Assembly: GCF_036226465.1 (NCBI RefSeq)
Contig: NZ_CP108476.1
Location: forward strand, 372,001-436,000
Direction: 5' to 3'
Source of the DNA: Kitasatospora sp. NBC_01250
GTDB taxonomy: Bacteria; Actinomycetota; Actinomycetes; Streptomycetales; Streptomycetaceae
Length of the DNA stretch: 64,000 bases
Shown here: one piece after another, positions 22,744 through 44,457 of the stretch
Numbering within the stretch: position 1 is the stretch's first letter
Layout: each line of letters starts with the position of its first letter
Translations under genes and position numbers: made by a program
The notes under the pieces: generated by a model
What the model was told of the DNA's origin: nothing
Databases searched by the model: none
The model's input: the letters and a program-made list of their open reading frames with translations, nothing else

Positions 22744-22992
22744 TGCACGTCCTCCCAGAGGGTGGGCCGATCGGGTGCGCCGCGCGCTGGGGCTTGCAGA
22801 CGTGCCGGCTCCTGCGCGGCGTTGGGGTGCTCTTCCCATGGTGCCCCGCGCCTCGGGCGGATGCGTGCGGGCCGGGCCGGGCCGGGTGGCGGATCAGTGC
22901 CGTACAGCCGCCCCGGCAGCCTGGAGCGGCGCGCACGCCGATCCCTGTCCGTGGGCCAGTGCCCGTTGCGGTGCTGGTTCGTTGTCTCGTGC

Positions 22993-24426
22993 ATGAAGAT
23001 GACCGAGCTGGACGACTATCCGGTGCGGCCTGGGCAGGTACGGGAGTGGACGCTGCACCCGTCCGTGATCTCGGCCGCCCATCAGGCGCAGCGGGCTTCG
23101 ACGCCACCCTCGTACAACCAGGAGTCCCACATCCTCACCATGGCCCGGTTGGAGGAGCGCGGGGCGCGGACCGCCGACTGGGCGGGTGTGGCGTTCGAGC
23201 TGCCGGGCGAGCTCGACGTGGCGGCGTTCGGCAGGGCCCTGGTGGACTGGATGGGCTGGCACGAGACGCTGCGCAGCGGATTCCGCAGGTCGGCTGGGCA
23301 GCTGCACCGCTTCACGCTGCCCGCGGAGGCGATCGAGGTGAGCAGCGAAGTCCTCGGGACCTTTCGTGATCCCGCGACGCTGAGCCGCTTTCTGCGCGAC
23401 CGGCTCGACGCCGGCACCCACACGCTGCGCTGGCCGAGCTTCGTGGGGGAAACGGTTCAGCGGGCCGACTCGGTGACGGTGGTGCTGGCCTTCGACCACA
23501 TGCACTTCGACGGCTACACGCTGTTCGGGATGGTGCAGGAGGTCCGCGAGTTCTACCTGGCCGCCCTCGAAAGGCGGACTCCCGCGGTGGCGGCGGCCGG
23601 CAGCCACGTCAGCTACTGCGATGTGGAACGCCGGGAGGCACTGCTGATCAGCCGCGAGCATCCGACCGTCCTGAAGTGGGAGCGGTTCATCGCGGACAGC
23701 GGCGGCCGGCCACCGCGCTTCCCGCTGCCGCTGGGCACCCAGGAGGAGGGCGAACTCCTGCCCCAGAAGTCGCTGTTCGAGTGGCTGCTGGATCCCGCCG
23801 AGACCGATGCCTTCGCGCAGGTCTGCCAGTCCGAACACACCACCCTGCCCTCCGGGGTGCTCGCGGCAGCAGCCCTGGCAGCACGGGAGCTCGGCGCGCC
23901 AGGGCCCTACCGCACGGTGATGCCCTTCCACACCCGTTCGCGACCGGAGTGGACCTCCTCGGTCGGCTGGTTCGTGGGTGTCGGCCCGGTGGAGGTCGAC
24001 CTGCCGCCCGAGTGCGACTTCCGCGCCGCCCTCCCCCTGGCCCAGGGGTCGGCCCGCGAGGCGAGGCAGGCGGCCCGGGTCCCGTTCTTCCGGGTCTCCG
24101 AGCTCCTGGGGGTGGACTTCAGGAAGGCCGCGCCCGATCCGTTCTCGCTGCTCTCGTACATGGATCTGCGCAACCTTCCCGGCGCCCAGGACTGGACCCG
24201 GTGGAACGCCCGGCTGCTGACCCGGATCTCCGACAGCGGCAAGGCGTGCCTGTGGGCCATGTGCTCCCCCGACGGCCTCTACCTGTTCGCCCGCTACCCC
24301 GACACCGCCCTCGCCGCCACCAACATCGCCCGCTTCGTGGGCGCCGTCCGCACCATCGCCCAGAGCGTCGCCCGCACCGGCAACTTCACCCCCGCCGCAC
24401 TCCACCAGGTGCCGTCAGCGGTATGA
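22993..24426 (+). CDS. Stand-alone condensation-domain acyltransferase-like protein
   Basis: A 477-residue protein with the fold of NRPS condensation domains and Pap-type acyltransferases. The active-site motif HxxxDG is intact (HMHFDG, His about 169), and the DFGW-equivalent region reads SSVGWFVGVGPVEV (about 321-334). No adenylation or carrier domain is attached or adjacent, so it would transfer an acyl group from a free-standing carrier protein or CoA to an amine or alcohol. ATG at 22993 or 22999; no strong ribosome site. Similar orphan condensation proteins occur in several Streptomyces lipopeptide and glycolipid pathways. Confidence 0.82.
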   Translation: MKMTELDDYPVRPGQVREWTLHPSVISAAHQAQRASTPPSYNQESHILTMARLEERGARTADWAGVAFELPGELDVAAFGRALVDWMGWHETLRSGFRRSAGQLHRFTLPAEAIEVSSEVLGTFRDPATLSRFLRDRLDAGTHTLRWPSFVGETVQRADSVTVVLAFDHMHFDGYTLFGMVQEVREFYLAALERRTPAVAAAGSHVSYCDVERREALLISREHPTVLKWERFIADSGGRPPRFPLPLGTQEEGELLPQKSLFEWLLDPAETDAFAQVCQSEHTTLPSGVLAAAALAARELGAPGPYRTVMPFHTRSRPEWTSSVGWFVGVGPVEVDLPPECDFRAALPLAQGSAREARQAARVPFFRVSELLGVDFRKAAPDPFSLLSYMDLRNLPGAQDWTRWNARLLTRISDSGKACLWAMCSPDGLYLFARYPDTALAATNIARFVGAVRTIAQSVARTGNFTPAALHQVPSAV

Positions 24427-24737
24427 CACCGCACGTACCGATGTCACCAGCCGGGATCCGGCTGGTCGGGGTCGGGCCCGGTCGGTGCGGTCGGCGCCGG
24501 TGCGAGCGGCGGGAAGTGCGGGTGGCGGGAAGTGCGGGCGGTACTTGAAAGACGCGCGGTTCCCCACCCTCGCTCATGCCCCGCGCCCTACCCTCCGACC
24601 TTCAGCGGCACGGTTCCCGAGGGCTTCGGCGGGTATGGGGGCCTGCGGCCCGGGTCGTCCCAGGTCCGGGAGTTCTGCCGGTGCTGGGCTGCGCCTTTGC
24701 CCGCGACCAGGCCGCCTGCTGAGGGGATTCCACGACC
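24427..24737. other. Gene-free stretch with a short direct repeat
   Basis: 311 bases without a convincing gene. A GGCGGGAAGTGCGGG-like 15-base unit occurs twice in tandem around 24507-24540. Otherwise I see only the presumed promoter of the next gene. Confidence 0.45.
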
Positions 24738-25397
24738 ATGACCGATGACAACAGCAAGACGGCCGAGCTGCCCGAGATGACCGACCACTGGTGGTGGCGC
24801 CCCGGGTGGCAGCCGGGCACGCGCTGCTACGCCTGGCACCTCACCTTTCAGAGCAGCCCCGAGGTGCACCGGTTCGCCGCGGAGCACCGGGCCGCGCTCG
24901 CCGAGGTGCCCGGCCTGGACCTCATCCCCGACCCGTGGCTGCACCTGACCATGCAGGGGCTCGGCTTCACGACCGAGGTGGGCGAGGACGACGCGCGTGC
25001 CGTCGTACGGGCCGCAGCCCACACCCTCGCGACCGTCCCCGCGTTCACGATGACCCTGGGCCCGGCGATCGTCGTCCCCGAGGCCCTGCTCCTGCCGGCC
25101 GAGCCGGCCGACGCCGTTCGCCAGGTCCGAGGTGCCATCCGCGCGGCCATCGCCCACGTGCGCCCCGAGGTCCCCGAGTCCGCGGACGGCTTCCACCCCC
25201 ACGTCTCGGTCGCCTACTCCAACGCCGTCGGCCCGGCCGCCCCGGCTCTGCGGGCCCTCGAGCCCCTGGCCGACCGCCGCGCCGTCGTCCGCGTGGCCGG
25301 CGCCGAGCTGATCGTCCTGCACCGCGACCGCCGGATGTACGAGTGGGAGACCTTCGCCAGCGTTCCTCTCGGCAGCGTTCCTCTCGGCCGACCATGA
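24738..25397 (+). CDS. 2'-5' RNA ligase family protein (2H phosphoesterase)
   Basis: A 219-residue 2H-superfamily protein. Two His-x-Thr/Ser motifs frame the active site: HLT at 69-71 and HVS at 155-157 (FHPHVSVAYS). These enzymes hydrolyse or form 2',3'-cyclic phosphates and 2'-5' linkages; the physiological substrate here is unknown. The last residues include a tandem SVPLG unit from a 15-base duplication at the 3' end. A 9-bp-stem hairpin follows. Confidence 0.85.
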   Translation: MTDDNSKTAELPEMTDHWWWRPGWQPGTRCYAWHLTFQSSPEVHRFAAEHRAALAEVPGLDLIPDPWLHLTMQGLGFTTEVGEDDARAVVRAAAHTLATVPAFTMTLGPAIVVPEALLLPAEPADAVRQVRGAIRAAIAHVRPEVPESADGFHPHVSVAYSNAVGPAAPALRALEPLADRRAVVRVAGAELIVLHRDRRMYEWETFASVPLGSVPLGRP

Positions 25398-25402
25398 CGA
25401 GA

Positions 25403-25427
25403 AGCCTCTGCGCCCCCGGCAGAGGCT
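25403..25427 (+). terminator. Hairpin terminator after the RNA ligase-like gene
   Basis: Nine-base stem AGCCTCTGC/GCAGAGGCT with a 7-base loop, beginning 5 bases after the stop codon. Confidence 0.7.
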
Positions 25428-25544
25428 CCGTCAGCCGGCCGCGCCGTGCTGTTCGGGCACGAGGCTGGGACGACAACAGTTGATGTGCAACAATCCTGCC
25501 GCGCGCGGCCTCAGCGACGGGCGCACCCCGAGAACGCCCGCCGC

Positions 25545-25837
25545 AAGCCTCCGGCCTCCGGACGCCACACGAACTGCTCCCCGGCGCACTCGCCAAGAAG
25601 AGTCCCGCCCCGGGCGTCACCCTCCTGCGATCCCTCATCGGCCGCGGATACTACGGACCGGAATCCCTCAAGGGCCACGGGCCGCACCGCTACGTCTTCC
25701 AGATCTACGCACTCGGCACCCGTCTCCTGGACCGCCCGGACCGTGCGGCGCTCATCAAGTCCCGGCCCCGCGCCCTCCTCGCCGCCATCGACTCCCCGGT
25801 CCTCGCACGCGGCCGCACCGCCGGCGTCTGCGAACGC
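25545..25837 (+). pseudogene. Remnant of a YbhB/YbcL (PEBP, Raf-kinase-inhibitor-like) gene
   Basis: One frame gives ELLPGALAKKSPAPGVTLLR, then GRGYYGPESLKGHGPHRYVF, QIYAL and finally PVLARGRTAGVCER. This is the C-terminal half of the actinomycete PEBP family, including the ligand-binding GHGPHRYVF. There is no start codon or N-terminal half (no DPDAP motif). The frame runs on past the normal end without a stop, into sequence antisense to the DUF1772 gene. Both ends are therefore lost. The family identity comes from recalled consensus, not a search. Confidence 0.6.
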
Positions 25838-25873
25838 CAGGACCTGTCCGGCGCCCATCGGGTACCCGCGGGC

Positions 25874-26320
25874 TCAGGCGAGGGCGGCGGCCAGCAGGGC
25901 GAAGGCGGCGATGAGGACGGCGACGCGGACGTAGTGGAAGCGGTCCCAGCGCTTCGCCTGTTCCTTCCAGTCCTCGGGCCGGTTCTCGGGGGTCCACGTC
26001 TTGCTCTGGTTGTTGATCGGGACGAGCAGCAGGAGCGACATGATCACGCTGGTGATCAGCAGTGCTCCGGCGGTGACGACAAGGCCGGTGCCGTGCTGGT
26101 GCCATCCAGCGACGGCCCGGGCCGCGACGAGGACGAGCGAGCCGATGTACCAGACCGGCATCACGGCGCCGAGCATCCGGCCCCCGTGGGCGCGGCCGAG
26201 TTGGCCGCTGTCACCGGGAAGTGCGTCGAGGATCGGGTTGATGACGAAGGCGACGGCGAACTCCACCCCCACCATCACGCCGAAGACCACGATGGTGACG
26301 ACCTCGAGTACGTCGAGCAT
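25874..26320 (-). CDS. DUF1772 membrane protein (anthrone oxygenase-like)
   Basis: A 148-residue integral membrane protein with four helices. FAVAFVINPILDAL in the N-terminal part, PINNQSKTW in the middle and DWKEQAKRWDRFHYVRV before the last helix are hallmarks of DUF1772/anthrone oxygenase-like proteins. Some members perform anthrone oxidation in aromatic polyketide pathways; most are uncharacterised. It is divergent from a TetR regulator across a 91-bp gap carrying two copies of one palindrome, so it is almost certainly the regulator's target. Confidence 0.85.
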   Translation of the reverse strand: MLDVLEVVTIVVFGVMVGVEFAVAFVINPILDALPGDSGQLGRAHGGRMLGAVMPVWYIGSLVLVAARAVAGWHQHGTGLVVTAGALLITSVIMSLLLLVPINNQSKTWTPENRPEDWKEQAKRWDRFHYVRVAVLIAAFALLAAALA

Positions 26321-26338
26321 GACGACCCCTCCTGGGAT

Positions 26339-26351
26339 CTAGCGCTGCTAG
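26339..26351. promoter_or_regulatory. TetR operator copy A (CTAGC-N3-GCTAG)
   Basis: 13-bp palindrome CTAGCGCTGCTAG, 18 bases upstream of the DUF1772 start. The same 5-3-5 palindrome recurs at 26390-26402, and a half-site GCTAG is at 26365-26369. Confidence 0.8.
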
Positions 26352-26389
26352 GTAATGAGATAACGCTAGTACTGCTGCCGCTCACTTGT

Positions 26390-26402
26390 CTAGCGATGCT
26401 AG
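26390..26402. promoter_or_regulatory. TetR operator copy B (CTAGC-N3-GCTAG)
   Basis: 13-bp palindrome CTAGCGATGCTAG, ending 9 bases before the TetR start, so binding would also repress the regulator itself. Centre-to-centre distance to copy A is 51 bp. Confidence 0.8.
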
Positions 26403-26411
26403 GATCGAATC

Positions 26412-26990
26412 ATGTCGGTACAGGAACGCAAGGAACGCGATCGGGCGGCCCGCGAGCGCCTCATCGTGGCGACGGCCCGCGAACTCGCCGAGCAGCAGGG
26501 CTGGGACGCGGTCACCACCCGCCGGCTCGCCGAGCGCATCGAATACAGCCAGCCCGTCCTCTACAGCCACTTCCGCGGCAAGCGCGAGATCATCGGCGCC
26601 GTCGCCCTCGAAGGCGCCGCCGAGATGGCCGCGGCGGTGCGTGCCGCGGCCTGCGGCGCGAACGGCCCGCGCACCCGGGTCACCGCCCTCGCCCTCGCCT
26701 ACCTCGACTACGCCGAACGCAACCCGGCGGTCTACGACGCCATGTTCCAGCTCGACGGCGGCCTGGCCTTCGCGGTCGAGGACACCCCGGAGCCGCTGAA
26801 GGACGCCTTCGCCGCCCTGCTGGAGAGCCTCGGCGACGTCGCCGGGGACGGCGTCCACCCGGGACTGTTCACCGAGGTGTTCTGGGCGTCCCTGCACGGA
26901 CTGGCCACCCTGACCCGGGCGGGACGGCTGCCACCGGCGGAAGCCGAGCGGCGGGTGGACCTGCTGGTGGACCGGCTCGCCGCGATCTGA
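26412..26990 (+). CDS. TetR-family repressor
   Basis: A 192-residue TetR protein. The N-terminal helix-turn-helix (ATARELAEQQGWDAVTTRRL, AERIEYSQPVLYSHFRGKRE) is typical and is followed by a helical ligand-binding domain of TetR_C type (YLDYAERNPAVYDAMFQ, FTEVFWASLHGLATL). It probably represses itself and the divergent DUF1772 gene through the two CTAGC-N3-GCTAG palindromes between them. The ligand is unknown. Confidence 0.9.
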   Translation: MSVQERKERDRAARERLIVATARELAEQQGWDAVTTRRLAERIEYSQPVLYSHFRGKREIIGAVALEGAAEMAAAVRAAACGANGPRTRVTALALAYLDYAERNPAVYDAMFQLDGGLAFAVEDTPEPLKDAFAALLESLGDVAGDGVHPGLFTEVFWASLHGLATLTRAGRLPPAEAERRVDLLVDRLAAI

Positions 26991-27065
26991 CACGCCCTCC
27001 GGGCGGAGGGGCAGCCGGGGTCTTCCGGCCCGGCTGCCGGCCGGCCGCGCGGAGCGGCCATGTTT

Positions 27066-27077
27066 TGAACGCGTTCA
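27066..27077. promoter_or_regulatory. Perfect 12-bp palindrome TGAACGCGTTCA, probable operator
   Basis: It lies 44 bases before the epimerase start and is embedded in TTTTGAACGCGTTCAGATTC, the style of TetR-family operators. It is unrelated to the CTAGC palindromes of the preceding TetR gene, so a different regulator encoded elsewhere is implied. Confidence 0.55.
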
Positions 27078-27121
27078 GATTCTGGCTAGAGTTCCCCCAG
27101 GCACCATCCAAGGGGGATCCG

Positions 27122-28063
27122 ATGAAGATCGTGCTGCCCGGGGGCTCCGGGCACGTGGGCAGGCTGCTGGAACGCGCGTGGACCGCTGCCGGCCACGAGG
27201 TCGTCATATTGACCAGGCAGTCGGGCGGTGGCCGGGAGGTCCACTGGGACGGCCGGAGCATCGGCCCCTGGGCCGCGGAGATCGATGGCAGCGACCTCGT
27301 GGTCAATCTCGCCGGACGGAGTGTCAGCTGCCGCTACACGCCGGCCAATCTCCGGGCCATGATGGACTCGCGCGTGCACTCCGCCCGGGTCGTGGGCGAG
27401 GCGATCGCGGCGGCCGCCCGGCCTCCCAAGGTCTGGCTCCAGATGAGCACCGCCACCATCTACGCCCACCGCTTCGACGCGGCCAACGACGAGACCACCG
27501 GCCTGCTCGGCGGCGCCGAACCGGGTGTCCCGCCGTACTGGGCCTACAGCGTCGAGATTGCCAAGGCCTGGGAGCAGGCGCAGGCGCAGGCGGACACCCC
27601 GCGGACGCGCAGGGTGGCGCTGCGCACCGCCATGGTGATGAGCCCCGGGCGAGGCGGCGCCTTCGACCAACTGCTGTGGCTGGCACGGCTGGGGCTCGGC
27701 GGTCCGGTCGCGGGCGGCGCCCAGTACATGTCCTGGATCCACGGCCGTGACCTCGTCCGGTCCCTCGACTTCCTGGTCGGCCGGGAGGACCTCAGCGGAC
27801 CGGTGAACCTTGCGGCTCCCACCCCCTTGCCGTACCGCGACTTCATGCAGGGCGTCCGGGCGGCATGGGGCGTCCCGCTGGGCCTGCCGGCGACCAGGTG
27901 GATGGCCGAGCTCGGCGCGTTCGCGCTGCGATCGGACACCGAACTGCTGCTGAAGAGCCGTCGGGTGGTCCCCGGCCGGCTACTGGAGGCCGGCTTCGAC
28001 TTCGCGTACACCCGCTGGCCCGAGGCCGCCGCCGACCTGGTGCGGAGCACCCGGGGCGGCTAG
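27122..28063 (+). CDS. TIGR01777-type NAD-dependent epimerase/dehydratase
   Basis: A 313-residue extended-SDR protein of the SDR39U1/TIGR01777 group. Features are the N-terminal GGSGHVGRLL nucleotide loop, NLAGRSVSCRYTPANLRAMM, STATIYAHRFDAANDE, and a C-terminal DUF1731-like end (RRVVPGRLLEAGFDFAYTRW). Function in bacteria is not defined; substrates are probably sugar-nucleotide or related. AAGGGGG precedes the ATG. The TAG stop is part of the CTAG that flanks MITE copy 1, so the element inserted exactly at the end of this gene. Confidence 0.88.
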   Translation: MKIVLPGGSGHVGRLLERAWTAAGHEVVILTRQSGGGREVHWDGRSIGPWAAEIDGSDLVVNLAGRSVSCRYTPANLRAMMDSRVHSARVVGEAIAAAARPPKVWLQMSTATIYAHRFDAANDETTGLLGGAEPGVPPYWAYSVEIAKAWEQAQAQADTPRTRRVALRTAMVMSPGRGGAFDQLLWLARLGLGGPVAGGAQYMSWIHGRDLVRSLDFLVGREDLSGPVNLAAPTPLPYRDFMQGVRAAWGVPLGLPATRWMAELGAFALRSDTELLLKSRRVVPGRLLEAGFDFAYTRWPEAAADLVRSTRGG

Positions 28064-28298
28064 GCCGTGTCTCACCATTCCCGCCGGGCGCGCGACGCCG
28101 GCCCGCAGCGTCAGCTGCTGATGTCGCTGCCCGCCTGGACGCACCGGCGAATCATCCACGTACGACCCAGTACGAGGACGCTTCGCCGGCACGCCCAGCC
28201 GGGCGCCACCCAGCCGCCAGGCTGGGTGGCGGGGGTACCTCCCGGCCGAAGGCTGGGGGAACCGCGCGCCGATCCGACGCGAATTGTGAGACACGGCC
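28063..28298 (+). mobile_element. MITE-like element, copy 1
   Basis: A 236-bp non-coding element with about 18-bp terminal inverted repeats (GGCCGTGTCTCACCATTC left; the right end complements GGCCGTGTCTCACAATTC). It is bounded on both sides by CTAG (28060-28063 and 28298-28301), the likely target duplication. It contains an internal hairpin (CACCCAGCCGCCAGGCTGGGTGG). No protein is encoded. Two further copies are at 34015 (same orientation) and 37051 (inverted). CTAG targeting would fit mobilisation by an IS5-group transposase supplied in trans; that is inference. Confidence 0.85.
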
Positions 28299-28377
28299 TA
28301 GTACCGCGTTGGGGCGCGGTACTCCACCGGTTCGACGGGGCCGGTCGGCAGCTGGGCGATCGCGCTGTGCGGCCGAC

Positions 28378-29616
28378 TCAGCGCAGGCCGAGGCAGGGCA
28401 GCCAGGCTCGGGAGGCGCCGTGGCCCGCGGTGAGCAGGGCGCACAGCGGGCCTGCTGCTCCCCCGAGCAGTCCCATGCCGCTCCCGCCGAGGGTCTGCAC
28501 CGCGGGCAGGCGGTCCATCAGGTGCGCGAACAGGCGGGCCTTCAGGGTGTCCGCGGCGGGCAGGCGGGCGTGGCGGGCGAAGGCGTCGGCCACCGCCAGG
28601 ACGCCCGCGGCGCCGTGGCACAGGGCCAGCGGATCGGCCGGCTGGTCGCCGAAGAGGTGGAAGTCCTCGTCGTAGTGTTCGGCGAGCGTGCTGAAGGCTG
28701 CCGCGGCCCAGGCGGCGGTCTCCTGGTCACCCAGCGCGTCCGCCGCGTCCCACAGCGCCCAGGACACTGCGGGGGTGCCGTAGCACCAGGCCTGGCGGGC
28801 GCGCGGCCCGGCGGGCGGCGGGGCGTCGAGTCCGGCGCCGTCCCAGGTGCGGATGGAGCGGGCGTCGTCGAAGGACTGCCGCATCAGCCAGCGGGTCGCG
28901 CGGTGCAGGGCGGCTGTCAGGTCGGGGTGCGGGCCGAGGCGGCGGACCGCGGCGGTGAGCGCGGCGACGACGCCGGCGGTGCCGTGGCCCATGCCGGTGT
29001 TGATCCGTCCGTCGATCCAGGCGAGGTGGGGATGGCCGGCGTAGCCCGCCGTCCGCAGCCGTGGCAGCTCGTCGGCGTCGCACAGCTGCGTCAGCTGGTC
29101 GGCGAAGGGGCCGAGTTCGGCCGGCGTCGGGCGGGTGCCCGCGCTCAGGGCGAGCAGCATGCCGGACGGTCCGGTGATCAGGTCGTAGTCCTCGAAGGCG
29201 AGTTGCTCGCGTCGCCAGCCGAGGGCCGGCGCGGTGCGGACCAGGTGGTCGCGGAGCCGGTCGCCGACGGGCTGCAGCCCGGGTTGGGCCCGGGCGCCCA
29301 GGCGCAGGCCCACCAGCGTTCCGGCCAGGCCGCCGTTGTACAGCCCGCAGTGGCCCGGCCCCCGACCGGCGGTGCGGGCCCAGACCGCCACGGCACGCGC
29401 CGCGGTGGCTGCGGCCTCCGGCGTCCCTGCGGCGTGCAGCAGGGACGCCAGGACGGGAACGCCCGGGTCGGAGGGGGGCTCGGCTCCTGGCCGGCCGTCG
29501 CGGGGCCGGGCGGACCAGGCGTCGAGGAGCCGGGCCGCGAGTTCGGTGACGGCGGTGCCGGCGGTGGTGTGCTCGGTCTGCTCGGCTCTTTCGGCCTTCT
29601 GGGTGTGCTGCGGCAC
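28378..29616 (-). CDS. lanC: Lanthionine synthetase C family cyclase (LanC)
   Basis: A 412-residue LanC cyclase that joins Cys thiols to dehydrated Ser/Thr to make (methyl)lanthionine rings. The zinc ligands are present: Cys278 (WCYG), Cys333 and His334 (LCHGAAG). The proposed catalytic His211 sits in NTGMGHGTAG, and GGSGMGLLGGAAG follows near the end. The GTG start has GAGGAGG immediately upstream. It is the last gene of the leftward lan operon and is separated from lanA by a 15-bp hairpin, so lower expression than the precursor is expected. It ends 79 bp from MITE copy 1. Confidence 0.92.
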   Translation of the reverse strand: MPQHTQKAERAEQTEHTTAGTAVTELAARLLDAWSARPRDGRPGAEPPSDPGVPVLASLLHAAGTPEAAATAARAVAVWARTAGRGPGHCGLYNGGLAGTLVGLRLGARAQPGLQPVGDRLRDHLVRTAPALGWRREQLAFEDYDLITGPSGMLLALSAGTRPTPAELGPFADQLTQLCDADELPRLRTAGYAGHPHLAWIDGRINTGMGHGTAGVVAALTAAVRRLGPHPDLTAALHRATRWLMRQSFDDARSIRTWDGAGLDAPPPAGPRARQAWCYGTPAVSWALWDAADALGDQETAAWAAAAFSTLAEHYDEDFHLFGDQPADPLALCHGAAGVLAVADAFARHARLPAADTLKARLFAHLMDRLPAVQTLGGSGMGLLGGAAGPLCALLTAGHGASRAWLPCLGLR

Positions 29617-29730
29617 GGTACCTCCTCGGGCGTGACGGGCCGGCGCCCCGCCCTTGCGGCCGAACAGGCCGGGCGGGACGCCGGTGGTGCGGCCGTCAGA
29701 GGCCGCTGCCGGGTGGTGCGGGTGGTGCGG

Positions 29731-29763
29731 TCAGGTACTCCGAGGAGCCCTCGGAGTACCTGA
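29731..29763 (-). terminator. Perfect hairpin between lanA and lanC (attenuator)
   Basis: 29731-29745 and 29749-29763 are exact reverse complements with a 3-base AGC loop. It begins 8 bases after the lanA stop, and lanC starts about 115 bases further on with no other obvious promoter. Such hairpins after precursor genes typically act as partial terminators or 3'-end stabilisers that raise precursor over enzyme. Confidence 0.75.
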
Positions 29764-29770
29764 GGGAACA

Positions 29771-29944
29771 TCAACAGACGCCGATGATCCCGCTGCAGAT
29801 GAGGACCGTGGCGCAGGCCACCGTGCAGAGGCCGCTGCACTCCCCGGAGGAGGCCTCGGGGGTCGGCAGGGTGGTCTCGGTGATGCGCTCGTCCAGGTCG
29901 CTGATCAGGGCGTCGAGGTCGGTGAGCGCCATGGTGTCGGGCAT
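29771..29944 (-). CDS. lanA: Class I lanthipeptide precursor peptide (LanA)
   Basis: A 57-residue peptide. The leader is acidic (MALTDLDALISDLDERI, in the place of the class I FNLD box). The core region is SSGECSGLCTVAC followed by ATVLICSGIIGVC. Five Cys (36, 40, 44, 50, 57) each have a Ser/Thr a few residues before: S33-C36, S37-C40, T41-C44, T46-C50, S51-C57, so up to five successive rings could form. GAAGGAGG lies 6 bases before the ATG. It starts 12 bp after lanB and precedes lanC. The core does not match any lantibiotic I know. The cleavage site is uncertain, perhaps near TPEA. Confidence 0.88.
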   Translation of the reverse strand: MPDTMALTDLDALISDLDERITETTLPTPEASSGECSGLCTVACATVLICSGIIGVC

Positions 29945-29956
29945 GGTTGTCCTCCT

Positions 29957-32812
29957 TCAGGACTGGTGATCGGTGTGGGCCGCCCCGGTGGCCCGCCCAC
30001 TGGGAGCGAGTGCCCCGGGGACGTCGGGTTCGCCGCGCAGTGCGGCGGCGGCGAGCGCCGCGAGGTGCTCGGCGCTCTGGTCGTGCGGAAGTCGCAGCAG
30101 CAGTTGGGCGGCGACGGCGGCGCCGCCGTGCAGGGGGTCCTGGAGCAGCAGGTCGCCGGGGGCGGGCAGCATCTCCTCGACCAACAGGTCCTCGCCGGGT
30201 TGCTGGGCGCAGATGCGCTCCAGCAGGGGTACGGCGGTCAGTGCCTTGAAGTCCACGGGCACCGGCTTCGCGTGGGGCACGGCCCGGACGAAGGCGAAGC
30301 GCGGCAGTGCGGCGGAGCGCCCGAGGTCGGCGAGGGCGCGCACCTTGGCCAGGTCGCTCTCCCCCGGCTGCCACAGCCGGGACCGGGGCACCCGCCAGGC
30401 CGCGGGGCTGACGACCAGGGTGCCGCCGACGGTCACCCGGGGCAGGTGGTCCGTGTCGGGGAACGCTTCGGCGAGACCGTCCAGGCAGATGACCTTCGCG
30501 ACCGCCGGGTGGCCGGCGGAGAACAGCAGCCGGAGCAGGAGGTCGTACGGGGGCAGCGGCGTGCGGGTGGCGTGGTGGACGGGCAGGATCCGGCACCCGT
30601 CGGCCTCGGCGATGATCTGCGCGCCGTCCCGTCGCAGGGTGATGCGGTCCAGCGGCAGGTAGCGGGCCGTCAGGCCGGCCGGGCCCTGGTACGGCGTCGG
30701 GTCCGGGTCGCCTGTCCACCAGCCGGTGATGACGGGGCGTCGGACGGCGTTGGCGGCGCGCTCGGCCAGCGGCGGGACCAGTACCTCGACGAAGCGGGCC
30801 CCGGACAGGCGCTCCACGGCGGTGAGGAAGTCCTGGTAGCGCCGGAGGTTGTCGTATCCGCCGTACAGGGTGTGGAGTGCGTCGGCGAAGCGCGCGTCCA
30901 GCATGCCTGCCGCCGAGGCGCTCTCCAGGACGGCGACCGGTCCGGGGCCTGCCAGTGGACGCAGCAGGCAGTCCAGGGGCCAGGGCGGCAGTGCCGTTCG
31001 AGCCGGTGGCGCGCCGAGGGCGTCGAGCAGGTCGTCGTCCAGGTCGACCTGCGCGGTGCCGGCCTGGGCGCTGCCGGCCTGGGAACTGCCGGTCCGGGCG
31101 CTGCCGTCGGCCTGGGCGCTGCCGGTCCGGGCGGACAGGTGGGTCAGCAGCCTGGCGTAACCGGAGCCGGGGGTCTCGGCGGGGTGCCAGCCGGTGGAGC
31201 GGCGCAGGGTCTGCGCTGTCTGCGATGGCGGGGTGGAGCCGTCGGGCAGGTGGCGCGCGAGGATCTCGCCGAGCGGACACGGTTCTTCGGTGAGCTGCGC
31301 CAGCTCCGCGGGCAGCCGGGGCGTGCCTGGCGGCGTGATCCGATCGGCTTCGCGCAGCCAGGCCACGCGCGCCGCGATGGCGAGGCCCCGTTGCACCTGG
31401 CGGGCGGCGGCTGCGGGTACGGCGGAGACGGTGGTGCGGTAGGAGTCGGTGAACCAGGGGTGGGAGCGGTCGGCGGGGGCGTCGGCGTCGGTGGCGTGGG
31501 GTGCCGACTCCAGTGCGGACGCGGATGCGGGCGCGGGTGCGGGTGCGGGCGCGGGTGCGGGTGCGGGTGCGGGTGCGGCGGGATCGTCGCCCGGTATCCG
31601 TGTCGGTGTCGGTGTCGGTATCCGTTGCGGAAGGGTGCCGAGTGTGCGGACGGCCTCGGCGGCGTGCCAGCCGGTGGCGCTGCGGCGCGGGGCCGCGCAG
31701 GCCTGGAGCACGCCGAGCCCGTGCAGGTGCGCGAGGAGGCCGCGGAGCACCGCGGGGTCAGGGGGCGCCGCGCCGCTCGCCGCGGTGCCGGTCGCCGCCG
31801 GGCCCAGCAGGGCCGCTTCGAGGTCGCCCAACGGGCGTGGGCCGTCGGCCAGAAGAGCCAGCACGGCCTCCAGCGGGCGGACGCGGCGCAGGACGACCTG
31901 CCGCATCCGGGCGCGTTCGTGCGGGTCGATCACCCAGCAGCGCAGCACGCCGGTGTCGGATCCGGTGCCCGCCGGCTGGAGGAAGTGCAGCGGTGCCGGG
32001 GCCAGCAGGGTGGCCGGGTCCGCCACCCGCAGGTCCAGGGCGCCGAGCCGGGCGCGCATCGCGTGGACGTTCTCGACGGCGTCGGCTGCCAACTCGCCGA
32101 GGGCCGAGCCGGGTGGGAGGAGGCGCGGGGCGGCAGCGTCGACCTCGTCGCCTGCGTCGTCCGTCACCGTGACCGTGACCGGCAGGAGGCCGACTTGACC
32201 GACCCAGCCGCGCGGGGTGGTCTTCGCCGCGGCCCGGCCGAGCGCCCGCCACAGGTACGCCCCGCGTTTGCGCAGCCGCTTCCCGCCCCAGGGCTCGCCC
32301 GCCGCCAGCCGCGCGGCCACGTCCGCGGCGGCTCCCGGGTCGGCCTCGTCCAGGAAGGCCCGCATGACGGGAGACCCGCACACCAGGGACCAGCCCAGAG
32401 CGCCCACGCGCTCGCGCTCGGCCGCCACCGCGCACTCCAGTCGCCGCAGGGCCGCTGTCGCGGACTCCCCCTGGCGGGAAAGCCGCGCGGCGTCCGCGGC
32501 GAGGCCACCGGCGACGGGCAACCGGTCCAGCAGCCGGCAGTCGGCCGGTCCCGGCACGGCGCCGGCGTGCAGCCGACGGCGCAGGGCCAGCACGGCGCGG
32601 CGGTCGGCGGGCGTGAGGCCGTCGTGCGGCACGACGGTGGCGCCCAACCGCTCGGCCAGCGCGCGGGCTTGCCCGCCTCGCTCGTCGTCCTGCCGGGCGT
32701 GCTCGGCGACCTGGGCGAACAGCTCCGGGTTTCCTGCCGATGCCCATGCCGCCAAGGGCACGCCGGCCACCCGGAGCAGTGCCGCTGGGCCCGGCTTCCG
32801 TTCCTCATGCAC
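29957..32812 (-). CDS. lanB: LanB-type dehydratase, glutamylation protein
   Basis: A 951-residue lantibiotic dehydratase N-terminal (glutamylation) protein, which would use Glu-tRNA to activate Ser/Thr of LanA. The signature AAKTTPRGWVGQVG is at about 195-208, and the later LYGGYDNLRRYQDF, RYLPLDRITLRRDG and FVRAVPHAKPVPVDFKA motifs follow in order. The elimination domain is missing here and is supplied by the preceding gene. Two low-complexity insertions are present: an (Ala-Pro) run at about 413-433 and a Gly-Ser-Ala-Gln repeat at about 557-589. The GTG at 32812 is chosen because GGGAGG lies 7 bases upstream and the upstream gene stops just before it (TGACGTG). Confidence 0.9.
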   Translation of the reverse strand: MHEERKPGPAALLRVAGVPLAAWASAGNPELFAQVAEHARQDDERGGQARALAERLGATVVPHDGLTPADRRAVLALRRRLHAGAVPGPADCRLLDRLPVAGGLAADAARLSRQGESATAALRRLECAVAAERERVGALGWSLVCGSPVMRAFLDEADPGAAADVAARLAAGEPWGGKRLRKRGAYLWRALGRAAAKTTPRGWVGQVGLLPVTVTVTDDAGDEVDAAAPRLLPPGSALGELAADAVENVHAMRARLGALDLRVADPATLLAPAPLHFLQPAGTGSDTGVLRCWVIDPHERARMRQVVLRRVRPLEAVLALLADGPRPLGDLEAALLGPAATGTAASGAAPPDPAVLRGLLAHLHGLGVLQACAAPRRSATGWHAAEAVRTLGTLPQRIPTPTPTRIPGDDPAAPAPAPAPAPAPAPAPASASALESAPHATDADAPADRSHPWFTDSYRTTVSAVPAAAARQVQRGLAIAARVAWLREADRITPPGTPRLPAELAQLTEEPCPLGEILARHLPDGSTPPSQTAQTLRRSTGWHPAETPGSGYARLLTHLSARTGSAQADGSARTGSSQAGSAQAGTAQVDLDDDLLDALGAPPARTALPPWPLDCLLRPLAGPGPVAVLESASAAGMLDARFADALHTLYGGYDNLRRYQDFLTAVERLSGARFVEVLVPPLAERAANAVRRPVITGWWTGDPDPTPYQGPAGLTARYLPLDRITLRRDGAQIIAEADGCRILPVHHATRTPLPPYDLLLRLLFSAGHPAVAKVICLDGLAEAFPDTDHLPRVTVGGTLVVSPAAWRVPRSRLWQPGESDLAKVRALADLGRSAALPRFAFVRAVPHAKPVPVDFKALTAVPLLERICAQQPGEDLLVEEMLPAPGDLLLQDPLHGGAAVAAQLLLRLPHDQSAEHLAALAAAALRGEPDVPGALAPSGRATGAAHTDHQS

Positions 32813-32813
32813 G

Positions 32814-33782
32814 TCATGACCTCCCGTCACCGAGGAGCGCGTGGGTCAGCAGGCTCTGCCGGGCCCCGGAGAGCCGTCCCCGGTTCCAGTGGAAGATGAC
32901 GTGGTAGGCGGCGGCGCGGCGCGGGCCGATCAGCGCCTCACCGGACTCGAAGTACCCGGTGCGCCACTGCTCGGCGGCCAGGCGCACGGCCTCCCCGTGC
33001 GCCTGGATCGCCGCTCGCCGCTCCGGCGGCGCCGAAGCGAGCAGGGCCGGCCCGCCGGCCTGCCAGGCCGCGAGGATGCCGGCGGCGGCACGCCGGGCGT
33101 CGTCGTCCAGCTCGGTGCCCAGCCTGCGCCCGGTGTCGTCCCGGACCACCTGCCAGACCCCGCGGTGCTCCCAGCCGACGACGCCGAGGCCGTGCAGGAG
33201 TTCACCGAGGAGGTGGAGCGAGAACCGCCAGTCCGCAATCGGCTCCGGCCCGCCCTCCTCTGCTGCCGCGGCGATGGCGTCGTGGTGATCGAGCCAGGCG
33301 AAGGAGTCCGCCGTGAACAGATCGTGCACGTATTTCATGGACTGCGGGCCGCCGAAGAGATACGTCTCCGGCTCGTACCGTCCGCAGATCGGCGGGCGCT
33401 GTTGTCCGTCCAAATCCTGCAAGCAGTGCGTCAGTTCACGGCGCAGCGGTTCGACCTCCGGTCGGCCGGCATCGAAGCGGACGCGCAGGCCCGGTGGCTT
33501 GTGCATGAAGAAGAAGGAACGCGCCTCCCCGGCGGCGATCAGCTTGCGGGCCGTGTCCGCGACGACCTGGTACGTCCGGTGCCAGGCCGCGGGCCCCGGT
33601 GCGAGGTTGATCTGGACCCAGCCGCTCTCCGGCACGTCGTCGCGCAGGGCGGCCAGACCGGCCGTCAGAAATGTGTGGCGCGCGGCGTCGTATCCGGGGC
33701 CGGTGGAATCAACCGGCACCACGCCCAGAGGATTGTCGCGCACGTCCTCGAGACAGTCGGCCAGCAGACGTTCGACCTTCAC
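32814..33782 (-). CDS. Thiopeptide-type/SpaB_C lanthipeptide elimination protein
   Basis: A 322-residue protein matching the SpaB C-terminal/thiopeptide-type bacteriocin biosynthesis family, the half of LanB that eliminates glutamate to give dehydroalanine/dehydrobutyrine. Motifs include GWVQINLAPGPAAWHRTYQV, FFFMHKPPGLRVRF, YEPETYLFGG and ADSFAWLDHHD. It is a separate gene, so this is a split LanB system, as in thiopeptide and pinensin-type loci. It is the first gene of the operon. GTG at 33782 has GAGG 7 bases upstream; a GTG one codon earlier is the alternative. The frame stays open upstream to 33950 without a ribosome site. Confidence 0.88.
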   Translation of the reverse strand: MKVERLLADCLEDVRDNPLGVVPVDSTGPGYDAARHTFLTAGLAALRDDVPESGWVQINLAPGPAAWHRTYQVVADTARKLIAAGEARSFFFMHKPPGLRVRFDAGRPEVEPLRRELTHCLQDLDGQQRPPICGRYEPETYLFGGPQSMKYVHDLFTADSFAWLDHHDAIAAAAEEGGPEPIADWRFSLHLLGELLHGLGVVGWEHRGVWQVVRDDTGRRLGTELDDDARRAAAGILAAWQAGGPALLASAPPERRAAIQAHGEAVRLAAEQWRTGYFESGEALIGPRRAAAYHVIFHWNRGRLSGARQSLLTHALLGDGRS

Positions 33783-34014
33783 CACGTCACCTCGCCTTCC
33801 TCGTGTTTTCCGCTTCACTCCTCGGATTTCCACAATTCGGCCTATTTGAAAAACGGAAGACGAATACTCATATGATGAACAAAGTTGCGCCCGGCGCACG
33901 TACGAGCCGGCACGCGCCGCAGGCGCACTCTGCGGGCACATTCCGTGCACCCGAGCGGGTGTTGCGGCGGGGCGAGGTCGGCCGCGATGCGGTGCTATCC
34001 GGTCGAGCGGCTCA
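33783..34014 (-). promoter_or_regulatory. A+T-rich leader of the lan operon
   Basis: The stretch at about 33800-33890 is the most A/T-rich of the surrounding 10 kb (AATTC, ATTTGAAAAACG, ACTCATATGATG on the plus strand). It lies directly upstream of the first lan gene and ends at MITE copy 2, so the lan promoter is most likely here. I cannot assign a specific -10/-35 pair or regulator site. Confidence 0.4.
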
Positions 34015-34250
34015 GGCCGTGTCTCACAATTCCCGCCAGGCGCGCGACGCCGGCCCGCAGCGTCAGCTGCTGATGTCGCTGCCCGCCTGGACGCACCGGC
34101 GAATCATCCACGTACGACCCAGTACGAGGATGCTTCGCCGGCACGCCCAGCCGGGCGCCACCCAGCCGCCAGGCTGGGTGGCGGGGGTACCTCCCGGCCG
34201 AAGGCTGGGGGAGCCGCGCGCTGATCCGACGCGAATTGTGAGACACGGCC
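34015..34250 (+). mobile_element. MITE-like element, copy 2
   Basis: A 236-bp element nearly identical to copy 1 and in the same orientation, differing by a few substitutions (GGCCGTGTCTCACAATTC left end). The left flank is TCAG where CTAG would be expected, and the right flank is CTAG. That right-hand CTAG is also the left target copy of the IS1182-family element, so the IS inserted into the edge of this MITE. Confidence 0.85.
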
Positions 34251-34253
34251 TAG

Positions 34254-35965
34254 GAGGCTCGTGAAGATCTTGTTGAGGGGCTGTCCGGCCGTAGGCCGGG
34301 CTGCCCCTCTGGTTATGCGTTGGTTGCCGGGGTGAGTTGCCAGGTGCTGCCGGTGTGGGTGAGTCCGAGGTTGATCAGGCGGCGGAGGTTGAGGGCGGCG
34401 GCTCGGGTGTGGAGCCAGGTGTCGTTCTTGATGGTGCCGCGGTAGCGGAGTCTGCGGTTGCCCCGGTGGACGATCCAGGCGACTGCGCGTTCGACGGGTG
34501 GTCGCCAGCGGCGGTAGTCGGCTTGCCAGTCGGGGTCGGTGGCGGCCTGGCGGCGGGCGGCGGTGAGGAGGTCGTGGTGCGGGCGGATGGTCAGGGTGCG
34601 TCCGGCCCTGGCCTTGGTGCACCGCTCGCGCAGGGGGCACCCGGTGCACAGGCCGGCGAAGGTGGCCTTGCGCTGCTGGTGGCGGCCGCCGGGATCGGAG
34701 AGCGGGACGGTGTGTCCGGCGGGGCAGGTCACGGTGGCGGCGGTGGTGTCGATGGTGAAGTCGTCGAGGGTGAAGCCGCCGGGGACGGCTGCCCGCAGTG
34801 GGGCGGGTTTGAGGAACAGTCGGTGCCCTTGCTGTTCCAGGGCCTGGCGGGCGTCGCCGGTGGAGTAGGCGGTGTCTGCGAAGGCGTCCACCGGGGCGTC
34901 CTCGTCGGCGAGCAGGTCGAGTCCGACGGCGGCCTCGTGGTGTTCTGCTCCAGCGCCGGGCCGCAGGGCGACCGCGGTGTATAACCCTGTCTCGGGCTCG
35001 ATGGCGAGGTGGGCCTTGAAGCCGTCCTGCCGGTGGGTGCGGGTCTTGTGCACGTGCCGGGCCTCGGGGTCGACGGTGGAGACCATCCGGTCGTGGGCGG
35101 TGCCCCGGGTGATGCGCCAGCGTCCGTCGCGTCCGTCGGAGTCCTCGGCGGGCTCGACGTCCTGTCCCGCGACCAGGGCCAGCAGGCCGACCGCGTTCGC
35201 GGCCTTCTCGCCGAGTTGTTGCTCGGGCAGGTGCCCGAGCAGCCGCAGCGCGTCGCCGACCAGGGCGTCGACGAGGTCGGCTCGGGCCTGCTCGTCGTTC
35301 CACGCGATGCGGGGTTTGCCCGGGTCGGTGTAGTCGTGGGCGGTGCAGTGCACGGCCGCGACCGCATCCGCGCCGGGGACTTCGCGGATCACCGCCCGGA
35401 CGGAGGCGATGATCTGGGTGACGGTGTCCTGGGTGGCGACCGCGTCGTCCAGCACGGTGGAGTCCAGCGCCCGCCGGTGCTTGCCCTTGAGGACGCCGGT
35501 GGCCCGCACGACCTCACGCACGGCCTCGAAGATCCGGTTGGGCCGGGGAGAGCGGGCCAGCCGGCGGCGGAAGTAGGCCAGCAGCGACGGGTCGAACGCG
35601 GTGTCGTTCAGGCCCAGTCCGCACGCGGCCTTCCACCGCAGGTCGCACCGCAGTTCCTGGACCGTCTCGAAGTCCGACAGGCCGTGCAGGGCCTGCAGCG
35701 CGATCGCCGCGGCCAGGATCTGCGGCGGCATGCTCGGCCGCCCGTTCGCCGACGGGTACATGTCCGCGAACATCACCGCCGGGAACAACTCACCACGGTG
35801 CTCGGCCAGGAACGCGAACACGCTGCCCACCGGGATCAACCCCCGGCACGTCTCCCAGACATCCGGCCCGACCGTCTCCCCGGACCACTCACCCATCGCC
35901 ACAAGAAACAGTCTGGCCCCGCCGCTCGCGCGGCGAGGCCAGAACCCAAGATCTTCACGAGCCTC
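34254..35965 (-). mobile_element. IS1182-family insertion sequence, complete
   Basis: A 1712-bp element with perfect 19-bp terminal inverted repeats (GAGGCTCGTGAAGATCTTG at 34254-34272, its complement at 35947-35965) and a CTAG on each side (34250-34253, 35966-35969). It carries one intact transposase reading leftwards. All parts are intact, so it is potentially active or recently arrived. Confidence 0.9.
34313..35902 (-). CDS. IS1182-family transposase
   Basis: A 529-residue DDE transposase. The N-terminal DUF772-type part (MYPSANGRPSMPPQILAAAI, then LRWKAACGLGLNDTAFDPS) is followed by the catalytic core with likely Asp residues in ALDSTVLDDAVATQDT and FADTAYSTGDAR and Glu in ERAVAWIVH. A C-terminal cysteine cluster (CPAGH, CTGCPLRERC) resembles the zinc-binding insert of IS1182 proteins. 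GTG at 35902 or ATG at 35896; no strong ribosome site. There is no frameshift or internal stop. Confidence 0.93.
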   Translation of the reverse strand: MAMGEWSGETVGPDVWETCRGLIPVGSVFAFLAEHRGELFPAVMFADMYPSANGRPSMPPQILAAAIALQALHGLSDFETVQELRCDLRWKAACGLGLNDTAFDPSLLAYFRRRLARSPRPNRIFEAVREVVRATGVLKGKHRRALDSTVLDDAVATQDTVTQIIASVRAVIREVPGADAVAAVHCTAHDYTDPGKPRIAWNDEQARADLVDALVGDALRLLGHLPEQQLGEKAANAVGLLALVAGQDVEPAEDSDGRDGRWRITRGTAHDRMVSTVDPEARHVHKTRTHRQDGFKAHLAIEPETGLYTAVALRPGAGAEHHEAAVGLDLLADEDAPVDAFADTAYSTGDARQALEQQGHRLFLKPAPLRAAVPGGFTLDDFTIDTTAATVTCPAGHTVPLSDPGGRHQQRKATFAGLCTGCPLRERCTKARAGRTLTIRPHHDLLTAARRQAATDPDWQADYRRWRPPVERAVAWIVHRGNRRLRYRGTIKNDTWLHTRAAALNLRRLINLGLTHTGSTWQLTPATNA

Positions 35966-36004
35966 CTAGGCTGCCTACAACCGCGATTGCGAGACGCCCA
36001 CACC

Positions 36005-36907
36005 ATGATCGACGCCACCGCCGACACGCCGCTGCTGCCGCCCCCGCTCCAGCGCTGGCTCGCCGACCGCCTGCCGGAGCTGGAGGCCGTCACGGACGTG
36101 TCCTGGCCCCGCGACAGCTCCCGGGTCTGGCGGCTCTCCACGCCTGCAGGTGCGGCGTTCGCGAAGATCAGCCCGTCCGTGGAGGACTACCAGCGCGAGG
36201 TGTACGCCTACGAGCACGTGGCCGGCGTTCTCGCCGACCACGAGGCGCCGCGCCTGCTCTCGGCGGACCCGCACCTGCGCGCGCTGCTGACCACCCCGCT
36301 GCCGGGCCGCGTCGTGCGTGATCTGCCCCTGGAGCCGCGGGCCGAGCAGCGGGCGCACGAGCTCGCCGGCCAGCTGCTCCGCCGCTGGCACGACCACCCT
36401 GTCACCGACCCCGACCAGGTCCGCGGCCGGATCGTCGCGTCGGCCACCGCCCAGGCGGACGAAGCCTCCCGGTGCTTGGAGCGCACGGCCGGACAACTCA
36501 CCGACGACCAGTACGCCTTGGTCGAGCAGGTGGTCCACGAGCTTCCCGCTCTGGCCGAGCAGCTTCCGATCGTCTACCAGCACGGTGACTTCTCGCCGCG
36601 CAACTGGCTCTGGGACGAGTCGGCCGAGTCCCTGGGCCTGATCGACTTCCAGCTGTCCGCCCACGGCAGCGCGGTGGGCGACCTGATCTGGCTGCACGGA
36701 GCGCTGTGGCCGATCCGCCCCGACCTCAAGGACGCCTTCTTCACCGGCTTCGCCCGCGACCTCACCGACGCCGAACGGCGGGCGCTTCCCCTCCTCACCA
36801 CGCGACTGGCCGTCTCCTACCTGACCACCGGCCTCACCGTGGACAACGCCATGCTCATCGACCGCGGCCGTGCCGTCCTCGCCCGCCTGGTGGAGGCCCA
36901 CGGCTGA
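36005..36907 (+). CDS. Aminoglycoside phosphotransferase/APH-like kinase
   Basis: A 300-residue kinase-fold phosphotransferase. Brenner-type catalytic loop YQHGDFSPRNW (HGD at about 193) and the metal-binding IDFQ that follows are present, with an N-terminal lobe lacking an obvious Gly-rich loop, as in APH proteins. The substrate may be an aminoglycoside, a homoserine-like small molecule or another alcohol; sequence alone does not say. It starts 36 bp after the IS and lies between MITE copies 2 and 3. A short hairpin (CCGGCGG-AGTG-CCGCCGG) follows the stop. Confidence 0.83.
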   Translation: MIDATADTPLLPPPLQRWLADRLPELEAVTDVSWPRDSSRVWRLSTPAGAAFAKISPSVEDYQREVYAYEHVAGVLADHEAPRLLSADPHLRALLTTPLPGRVVRDLPLEPRAEQRAHELAGQLLRRWHDHPVTDPDQVRGRIVASATAQADEASRCLERTAGQLTDDQYALVEQVVHELPALAEQLPIVYQHGDFSPRNWLWDESAESLGLIDFQLSAHGSAVGDLIWLHGALWPIRPDLKDAFFTGFARDLTDAERRALPLLTTRLAVSYLTTGLTVDNAMLIDRGRAVLARLVEAHG

Positions 36908-37050
36908 GCGGTTCCCGCACCCGCGGCCGGCGGAGTGCCGCCGGGGCGGCCTCCGGACGCGCCGACCGGGCGCTTCCGCCGTCCGCCCCGGACTGCGAAA
37001 AGGCAGACCGTCCTCGCCGTTCCCTCGTCCGGTGGCGCCCGCTCCCCTGG

Positions 37051-37285
37051 GCCGTGTCTCACAATTCGCGTCGGATCAGCGCGCGGCTCCCCCAGCCTTC
37101 GGCCGGGAGGTACCCCCGCCACCCAGCCTGGCGGCTGGGTGGCGCCCGGCTGGGCGTGCCGGCGAAGCATCCTCGTACTGGGTCGTACGTGGATGATTCG
37201 CCGGTGCGTCCAGGCGGGCAGCGACATCAGCAGCTGACGCTGCGGGCCGGCGTCGCGCGCCTGGCGGGAATGGTGAGACACGGCC
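37051..37285 (-). mobile_element. MITE-like element, copy 3 (inverted)
   Basis: A 235-bp copy in opposite orientation to copies 1 and 2, with GGCCGTGTCTCACAATTC at its left end and the complement of GGCCGTGTCTCACCATTC at its right. The right flank is CTAG; the left flank is CTGG, one base off. It sits 82 bp upstream of the Trypco1-like start, so it occupies that operon's promoter region and may have brought or disrupted control sequences. Confidence 0.85.
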
Positions 37286-37367
37286 TAGCATGGCCGCACA
37301 GCAGCGGAGTGCCGTTCAACGTGTGGGCGAATTCGGCGACTTGCCGGAATCGAGGAGAGGCAGTCGT

Positions 37368-37694
37368 ATGTACCTGAGTGTGCCCTTCGACAACGGTGAG
37401 ACGTTTGTCGTGGAACTCTCCGAGGGAGAGGGCTCCGGAGTCATCCGGGCGAGCCGCGGCGAGGGGCTGGTCGAGTCCTCCACCGAGACCTTCGAGGCGG
37501 GCCTGGTCCGGGTGCGACACCTCGCCACGGCACTGCTGGAGCGGCTGAAGGACCTGCCCAGGAGCCCCGATCACATACGGGCCGAGTTCGGGATCAAGGT
37601 CACGGCCGAGGCGGGGCTCGTCGTGGCCAAGGCGTCGGGCGATGCGCACATCACCCTGGAACTGGAGTGGAGCCGCCAAGAGGGCGAGGAGTGA
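37368..37694 (+). CDS. Trypco1/CU044_2847-like small protein
   Basis: A 108-residue beta-rich protein: YLSVPFDNGETFVVELSEGE, then a central helix (VRVRHLATALLERLKDLPRS) and IRAEFGIKVTAEAGLVVAKA. This matches the small trypsin-co-occurring domain (Trypco1, also annotated CU044_2847 family) linked by comparative genomics to bacterial conflict systems. GGAGAGG precedes the ATG at 37368; the frame opens earlier at 37290 without such a site. Its stop overlaps the next start (GTGA), so the two proteins are made together and probably interact. Confidence 0.75.
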   Translation: MYLSVPFDNGETFVVELSEGEGSGVIRASRGEGLVESSTETFEAGLVRVRHLATALLERLKDLPRSPDHIRAEFGIKVTAEAGLVVAKASGDAHITLELEWSRQEGEE

Positions 37695-42510: not shown

Positions 42511-42597
42511 GCCGACGAGCCTGTGCCCGGCCGACGCGCTCATCCAGGCACCGGCAGTACCTGGCTGGGTGCCTCGGCGCCCGGGCACACTGGAGAG

Positions 42598-43458: not shown

Positions 43459-43511
43459 GGGGGCGGGTGAGAGCCGACCGTAGGCCGGTCCGTGCCCGCG
43501 GCGGTCGGGCT

Positions 43512-44440: not shown

Positions 44441-44457
44441 TCCCCCGCGGGCTTTTC

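Follow-up and report, generated by a model that had tools for sequence, protein, structure and literature searches.

The window analysed here is a stretch of 64,000 nucleotides from Kitasatospora sp. NBC_01250 (contig NZ_CP108476.1, positions 372,001 to 436,000 of the forward strand), and positions are counted from its first letter. Four minus-strand genes spanning 28378–33785 encode, in order, a stand-alone lyase, the N-terminal part of a LanB, a 57-residue precursor and a LanC cyclase. These genes very probably form a class I lanthipeptide cluster of the SapT/dmxorosin type. The predicted product is a hydrophobic peptide with five rings, whose role likely lies in aerial growth and not in killing other bacteria. 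Gene content, recurrent gene order, lyase residues, the precursor family and the copy numbers of the hairpin elements that flank the genes are read directly from the sequences. The features of the cluster are:

32814–33785, minus strand: stand-alone glutamyl lyase (elimination protein), predicted SapT/SptBb-like syn type (PF14028, TIGR03891, Lys and Leu marks)
29957–32830, minus strand: LanB N-terminal part, predicted Glu-tRNA-dependent glutamyl transferase (PF04738, TTPRG, alignment of eight sequences)
29771–29944, minus strand: precursor LanA, 57 residues, predicted leader 1–31 and core 32–57 with five Cys (108-member precursor family)
28378–29616, minus strand: LanC cyclase (PF05147; C278, C333 and H334 invariant in 10 of 10)
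33868–33890, minus strand: conserved upstream motif, predicted promoter or operator (shared with related loci)
29617–29770, minus strand: gap between lanA and lanC with a hairpin of 15-bp stem

All four reading frames are open. The lyase and LanB genes overlap by 17 bp, and 12 bp separate LanB from the precursor. The 378-residue lyase frame listed from 33950 is over-long; alignment with relatives places the start at the GTG at 33785. The lyase matches PF14028 with 53.2 bits and TIGR03891 with 73.3 bits, both above the cut-off. The match of the LanB part to PF04738 (42.8 bits) is confined to residues 590–862. Its TTPRG motif occupies residues 204–208; the alignment of eight shows T204, T205, P206 and R207 as invariant, a list that does not include G208. 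LanC matches PF05147 with 68.9 bits, and its three invariant residues are presumably the zinc ligands. A preliminary description, made from the sequence alone, had named four adjacent leftward genes, a class I locus with a split LanB and a LanC, the TTPRG motif and an intact zinc triad; the open reading frames, family matches and alignments bear this out.

A contig search with the precursor alignment recovers nine related loci, all titled Streptomyces. Eight of them have the full series lyase, LanB, precursor, LanC in this order, and the contig of the ninth (L033) begins inside LanB. The lyases of the other eight loci are 51–76% identical to that of the window. With neighbouring genes called by a simple custom gene finder and compared by BLASTP, no neighbour group is common to more than two of the nine loci. 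L032 and L035 have two upstream groups in common, one of whose L035 frames is antisense to the lyase and likely spurious, and one further group is common to L032 and L037. Pfam matches of 20 chosen neighbours indicate varied functions, with major facilitator superfamily genes near L034 and L036. A macrolide-type glycosyltransferase gene lies just downstream of lanC in both L032 (10663–12072) and L035 (10902–12071).

The split LanB beside LanC and the third place of the precursor had been described as unusual, as had the lack of LanT and LanP. The block does consist of four genes only, with no protease, immunity gene or ABC (ATP-binding cassette) transporter among them. The lack of a protease is nevertheless not odd, as the SapT and dmxorosin clusters likewise have none. 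The split LanB with LanC and the precursor in third place recur in the related loci, and the published SapT and dmxorosin clusters also have a split LanB and a LanC (PMC9011353, PMC11855644). These points, and the lack of protease and transporter, are therefore normal for clusters of this kind. The layout of the window cluster is ordinary.

Lyase type, precursor family and known systems

SapT comes from a rare subtype of class I in which LanB is split, and its lyase, SptBb, has Lys where NisB has Tyr, Leu in place of Arg, and no catalytic His (PMC9011353). The same marks are used to separate syn- from anti-lyases and have been reported from class I lanthipeptide clusters only (PMC9486935). The window lyase, which reads FFFMHKPPGLRVRF and YEPETYLFGG, has Lys for Tyr and a hydrophobic residue for NisB Arg826, and it lacks the catalytic His (criteria of PMC9011353 and PMC9486935). 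Glutamylation and elimination are divided between two proteins that lie beside LanC and the precursor. The Lys and Leu marks are present, and the His is missing, in all nine aligned lyase orthologues; K98 and L145, counted from 33791, correspond to K96 and L143 counted from the GTG.

The controls for these marks are other lyase domains of the same genome, NisB itself being outside the alignment. A PF14028 search of the genome gives nine matches: the window lyase, seven others that were aligned, and a ninth, of 25.7 bits, that has no locus. The His before LRL/LRI is kept in six of the seven (L040–L044 and L046), and five of these six, all except L046, have Arg or Lys at the second mark. The remaining domain, L045, is syn-like (MRK, ETEAFGG) and adjoins the canonical L044 (C1:8387475-8390302), as in coi-type clusters.

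That the locus yields an antibacterial lantibiotic or a product like a thiopeptide, and not a morphogen, is unlikely. TIGR03891, which describes a thiopeptide-type bacteriocin protein, is matched above the cut-off, and thiopeptide split LanB pairs are likewise two-protein dehydratases. Unlike those systems, the window block has a LanC. An azole-forming cyclodehydratase, as in a thiopeptide cluster, is not matched among the four genes, and no further gene is common to more than two related loci. The syn marks of the lyase point to a class I lanthipeptide cluster, given their reported limitation to such clusters (PMC9486935). The block also lacks an immunity gene and an ABC transporter, and dmxorosin gave no inhibition zones (PMC11855644).

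The precursor has five Cys (36, 40, 44, 50 and 57), preceded by S33, S37, T41, T46 and S51 at distances of 3, 3, 3, 4 and 6. The earlier observation that each Cys has a Ser or Thr three to six residues before it is thus correct. The window precursor has no family match in the domain library. A search with it alone finds seven proteins, itself included, whose alignment was used for the nine-locus search, and a profile search finds 108 precursor proteins, the window's included. Where shown, the organism is Streptomyces or Kitasatospora, except for P0101 (Salinifilum) and P0107 (Bounagaea); P0003 and P0005 are named Kitasatospora. A published survey found SapT homologues in Streptomyces only (PMC9011353). 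Most of the 108 are named 'hypothetical protein' and three carry 'Lantibiotic'. The leader pattern L(D/E)xLIxxL(D/E)x(R/Q) is present in 105 of the 108, and the leader of the window precursor is LTDLDALISDLDERI.

Exactly the four-ring spacing of SapT and dmxorosin is found in 57 of the 108 precursors, and some added C-terminal pair of Ser/Thr and Cys in 15. In dmxorosin, T2, S6, T10 and T16 are dehydrated and four Cys are closed, and the printed primers translate to PQTLEL and CATVV (PMC11855644). An MPQTLEL start occurs in three of the 108 precursors and CATVV in 16. With the dehydration spacing present in 57 precursors and the primer-encoded peptides found in the family of 108, the published dmxorosin data fit the precursor family. 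DmxA is grouped with SapT in the network of the dmxorosin authors (PMC11855644). A match of the core to a characterised lanthipeptide, which had been named as a possible objection to the locus, exists at the level of the family and not by identity.

The window core is hydrophobic, with a grand average of hydropathy of 1.54. By the numbering of dmxorosin, the precursor would be cleaved between residues 31 and 32. The predicted product is SSGECSGLCTVACATVLICSGIIGVC minus 5 H2O, with a computed monoisotopic mass of 2355.055. Two of its predicted features are new: a third ring that is contracted and a fifth of seven residues.

The spt cluster of Streptomyces lavenduligriseus Tu901 (PMC9011353, PMC9890492) resembles the window cluster in its split LanB, its LanC, the lack of a protease, the three marks of its lyase and its small hydrophobic core. 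It differs in that SapT has four rings, one lanthionine and three methyllanthionine, whereas the window core has five pairs of Ser/Thr and Cys; SptA enters this comparison from its description. The dmx cluster of Streptomyces thermolilacinus SPC6 (PMC11855644) has dmxA, dmxBL, dmxBS and dmxC and no protease, and its dehydration pattern and primer-encoded peptides recur in the precursor family. Dmxorosin has four Cys against five in the window, and ring C of the window is one residue shorter. Pinensins come from Bacteroidetes. They also have a split LanB, with glutamylation and elimination on separate proteins (PMC7268733). Class I precursors of Bacteroidetes have the leader motif LxLxKx5L (PMC7268733), as against the window leader given above. 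The coi cluster of Streptomyces coelicolor A3(2) shares a syn-type lyase domain with the window; its LanB is full-length and its lyase is fused to a methyltransferase (PMC9486935), whereas the window block has neither feature.

Several observations weigh against the assignment to the SapT/dmxorosin type. The window core lacks the four-ring spacing and has T-x2-C in ring C, although its homology to the family is clear. T-x2-C in ring C is found in only two of 86 parsed precursors, the window's and P0002. The tail SGIIGVC is unique to the window precursor (one of 108). An extra S-G-(V/I/L/F)-(V/I/G/F)-C motif is placed at the N-terminus in six of 41 SapT homologues (PMC9011353), whereas it is C-terminal in all ten family proteins that have it; we infer that the two are one feature. 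None of the 108 cores has the exact dmxorosin formula, and P0015 differs from it by two CH2. The window lyase matches no LanB chain in a search of solved structures. The comparison with SptA, SptBb and DmxA rests on their published descriptions. The dmx cluster is silent in its native host (PMC11855644).

Predicted upstream signals and pathway

A 23-bp motif, GCGCAM-N4-GTYSAT-N2-TATGA, lies 82 bp before the GTG of the lyase. Of the eight other loci whose lyase is complete, six (L034–L039) have a looser form before the lyase gene, and L031 and L032 have near versions. These matches are not independent because the motif was drawn from the same sequences. The 9.0 Mb genome contains one exact site, that of the lan genes, and three sites with two mismatches; the reversed control gives 0 and 0. 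With up to three mismatches allowed, 0.29 sites are expected in the 64 kb of the window and one, the exact site, is seen. Homology to the related DNA is retained over 152 bp upstream of the lyase start, up to 33943. A sigma-70 scan finds nothing, as does an Rfam search over 24000–44000.

In 10 of 10 loci the interval from lanA to lanC contains a hairpin with a stem of 12–16, several of the LanC starts having been chosen by hand. Only in three loci (L031, L033 and L034) is the stem longer than any seen in 60 mononucleotide shuffles, and the case for the hairpin therefore rests on recurrence. It could be a way to make more precursor than cyclase.

Every enzymatic step of the pathway, its stereochemistry, the cleavage site and the function are predictions. 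A single transcript would start near the conserved motif at 33868–33890. The transferase would load Glu from Glu-tRNA onto Ser and Thr of the core, and the lyase would remove it by syn-elimination, giving (E)-dehydrobutyrine from Thr. LanC would then add the Cys thiols, with D-allo-L methyllanthionine rings as the result. Cleavage before S32 would fall to a protease whose gene lies elsewhere. (E)-dehydrobutyrine has been seen in a dehydrobutyrine-containing SapT intermediate (PMC9890492). The SapT/dmxorosin assignment gives an unannotated locus a family whose chemistry is known and whose role is likely developmental, and the search for an odd antibiotic becomes a specific question of mass, stereochemistry and aerial growth. 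If the five predicted rings form, the core would extend the ring pattern of SapT.

Hairpin elements and insertion sequence

The lanthipeptide genes are flanked by copies of a hairpin element that resembles a miniature inverted-repeat transposable element (MITE), and an insertion sequence (IS) lies on their upstream side:

28060–28301, plus strand: hairpin element (MITE-like), copy 1
34014–34253, plus strand: hairpin element, copy 2
37046–37288, minus strand: hairpin element, copy 3, inverted and outside the bracket
34254–35965, minus strand: IS1182-type insertion sequence, transposase 34313–35902, CTAG on both sides (NF033551, 348.9 bits)

Copies 1 and 2 have the same direction, are 98% identical and are 5712 bp apart, so that the block lies exactly between two same-orientation copies, as had been described. 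Copy 1 begins at a CTAG that contains the stop codon of an epimerase gene (27122–28063). The 242-bp element folds strongly (z -9.7), and a BLAST search of the genome with it gives 66 pieces. The pattern of its ends, with up to one mismatch allowed, is seen 29 times in each of the forward and reverse forms (control 0). Paired, these ends make up 25 elements of 51–240 bp and leave eight single ends, for a total of about 33 elements in the genome. Three elements lie within 9.2 kb in the window, the third 3 kb from the bracket, and the genome has two other such close groups. Among 18 copies shown with both ends, eight have CTAG at both.

Six full-length copies were compared pairwise, with gap columns that depend on the chosen end points. 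Copies 1 and 2 differ by five mismatches, copies 2 and 3 by one, copies 1 and 3 by four, and copy 1 and the distant copy L003 by five. The bracketing copies are not a matched pair, because copy 2 is nearer to copy 3 than to copy 1. At the block edges of the nine related loci the element is found in none; the sole match, of 37 nucleotides, lies in L039, some 3 kb past lanC. In L063, which covers more of the genome of L031, an element-like match of 81% is found roughly 8.5 kb away from the block. Of the nine loci, L031 is nearest to the window; DNA homology to it spans 33943 to 28378, which leaves 70 and 76 bp between its limits and the two element copies.

In a sample of the genus, two of 30 other genomes match the lyase with an E value of 1e-20 or lower, G021 (76%) and G027 (41%). 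G021 is likely the same genome as L031, and the 19.5 kb read from G027 contain nothing that matches LanB or LanC at 1e-10. A search of 12 other genomes with the epimerase gave a match near 70% in five. In the stretches read from four of these, it has other neighbours, and matches to other window genes are scattered and distant. No relative with a syntenic site was found among the genomes searched. Relatives that carry the four genes without the element do exist, at other sites and not at the same locus.

The flanking elements are likely independent insertions, and the earlier proposal that the block moves as a unit between two MITEs is not supported, in view of the nine loci without the element at their edges, the roughly 33 genome copies and the unmatched bracket. 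A composite mobile unit at 28060–34253, in which the two copies would serve as ends for a trans-acting transposase with the lanthipeptide genes between them, is very unlikely. Such a unit would accord with the two same-direction copies, the CTAG at both outer ends, the limits of homology to L031 just inside the copies and the sparseness of lan genes in the genus sample, where one of the two lyase matches is distant. Against it, CTAG stands on either side of copy 1, which is what a lone insertion would give, and copy 1 differs from copy 2 by as much as from a distant copy. The abundance of the element, its other local clusters and its lack at the edges of related loci also argue against it. Also very unlikely is a travelling developmental cassette, namely a four-gene SapT-type operon with its own promoter that hairpin-element ends would carry from one chromosome to another, here making a five-ring SapT-like morphogen with D-allo-L-methyllanthionine, a contracted third ring and a seven-residue last ring.

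The IS directly abuts copy 2. Its transposase lies between terminal inverted repeats, and its NF033551 score exceeds the cut-off of 270, which places it in the IS1182 family. The genome has four near-identical full copies (window, L069, L071 and L072). All four have CTAG on both sides, with a hairpin element beginning or ending at one CTAG. The window contains 14 CTAG, five of them at hairpin or IS elements. By a rough estimate, a random CTAG insertion would meet an element end with a chance of a few per cent, which suggests that the IS1182-type element targets hairpin-element ends. This may help explain how some insertion sequences choose hairpin ends as targets. Among the papers listed and judged by title and start of abstract, a scope that shows no absence, none was recognised as dealing with hairpin elements as IS1182 targets or with MITEs beside lanthipeptide genes.

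Elements and the IS crowd the upstream side of the cluster, and a degenerate or silent relic, cut off by these insertions and no longer expressed, would fit this and the silence of dmx in its native host (PMC11855644). This is quite improbable for the window cluster, as its four frames are open, its active-site residues are intact, and the upstream motif survives with the 152 bp of homology before the lyase start.

Other genes in the window

A LuxR-type response regulator and a sensor kinase are encoded at 43757–45757, 10 kb from the block. A similar pair lies beside lanC in L063 (3689–5028), with 50% identity for the regulator and 45% for the kinase, the latter over 54% of the kinase. The arrangement differs, and the likeness is taken as coincidence.

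A single condensation domain (PF00668) is encoded at 22282–24426; the start listed for its frame likely lies too far upstream. The region 37290–42142 contains a Trypco1 (trypsin-co-occurring) gene adjoining a gene for a 1491-residue protein with an nSTAND1 NTPase (nucleoside triphosphatase) domain and many WD40 repeats. The N-terminal part of this protein has weak matches to the protease parts of defence models, and the region is a candidate conflict or defence system. The genes at 49338–55447 encode a TauD-like oxygenase, a 1253-residue IucA/IucC plus FhuF protein and an alcohol dehydrogenase, and likely form a siderophore cluster.

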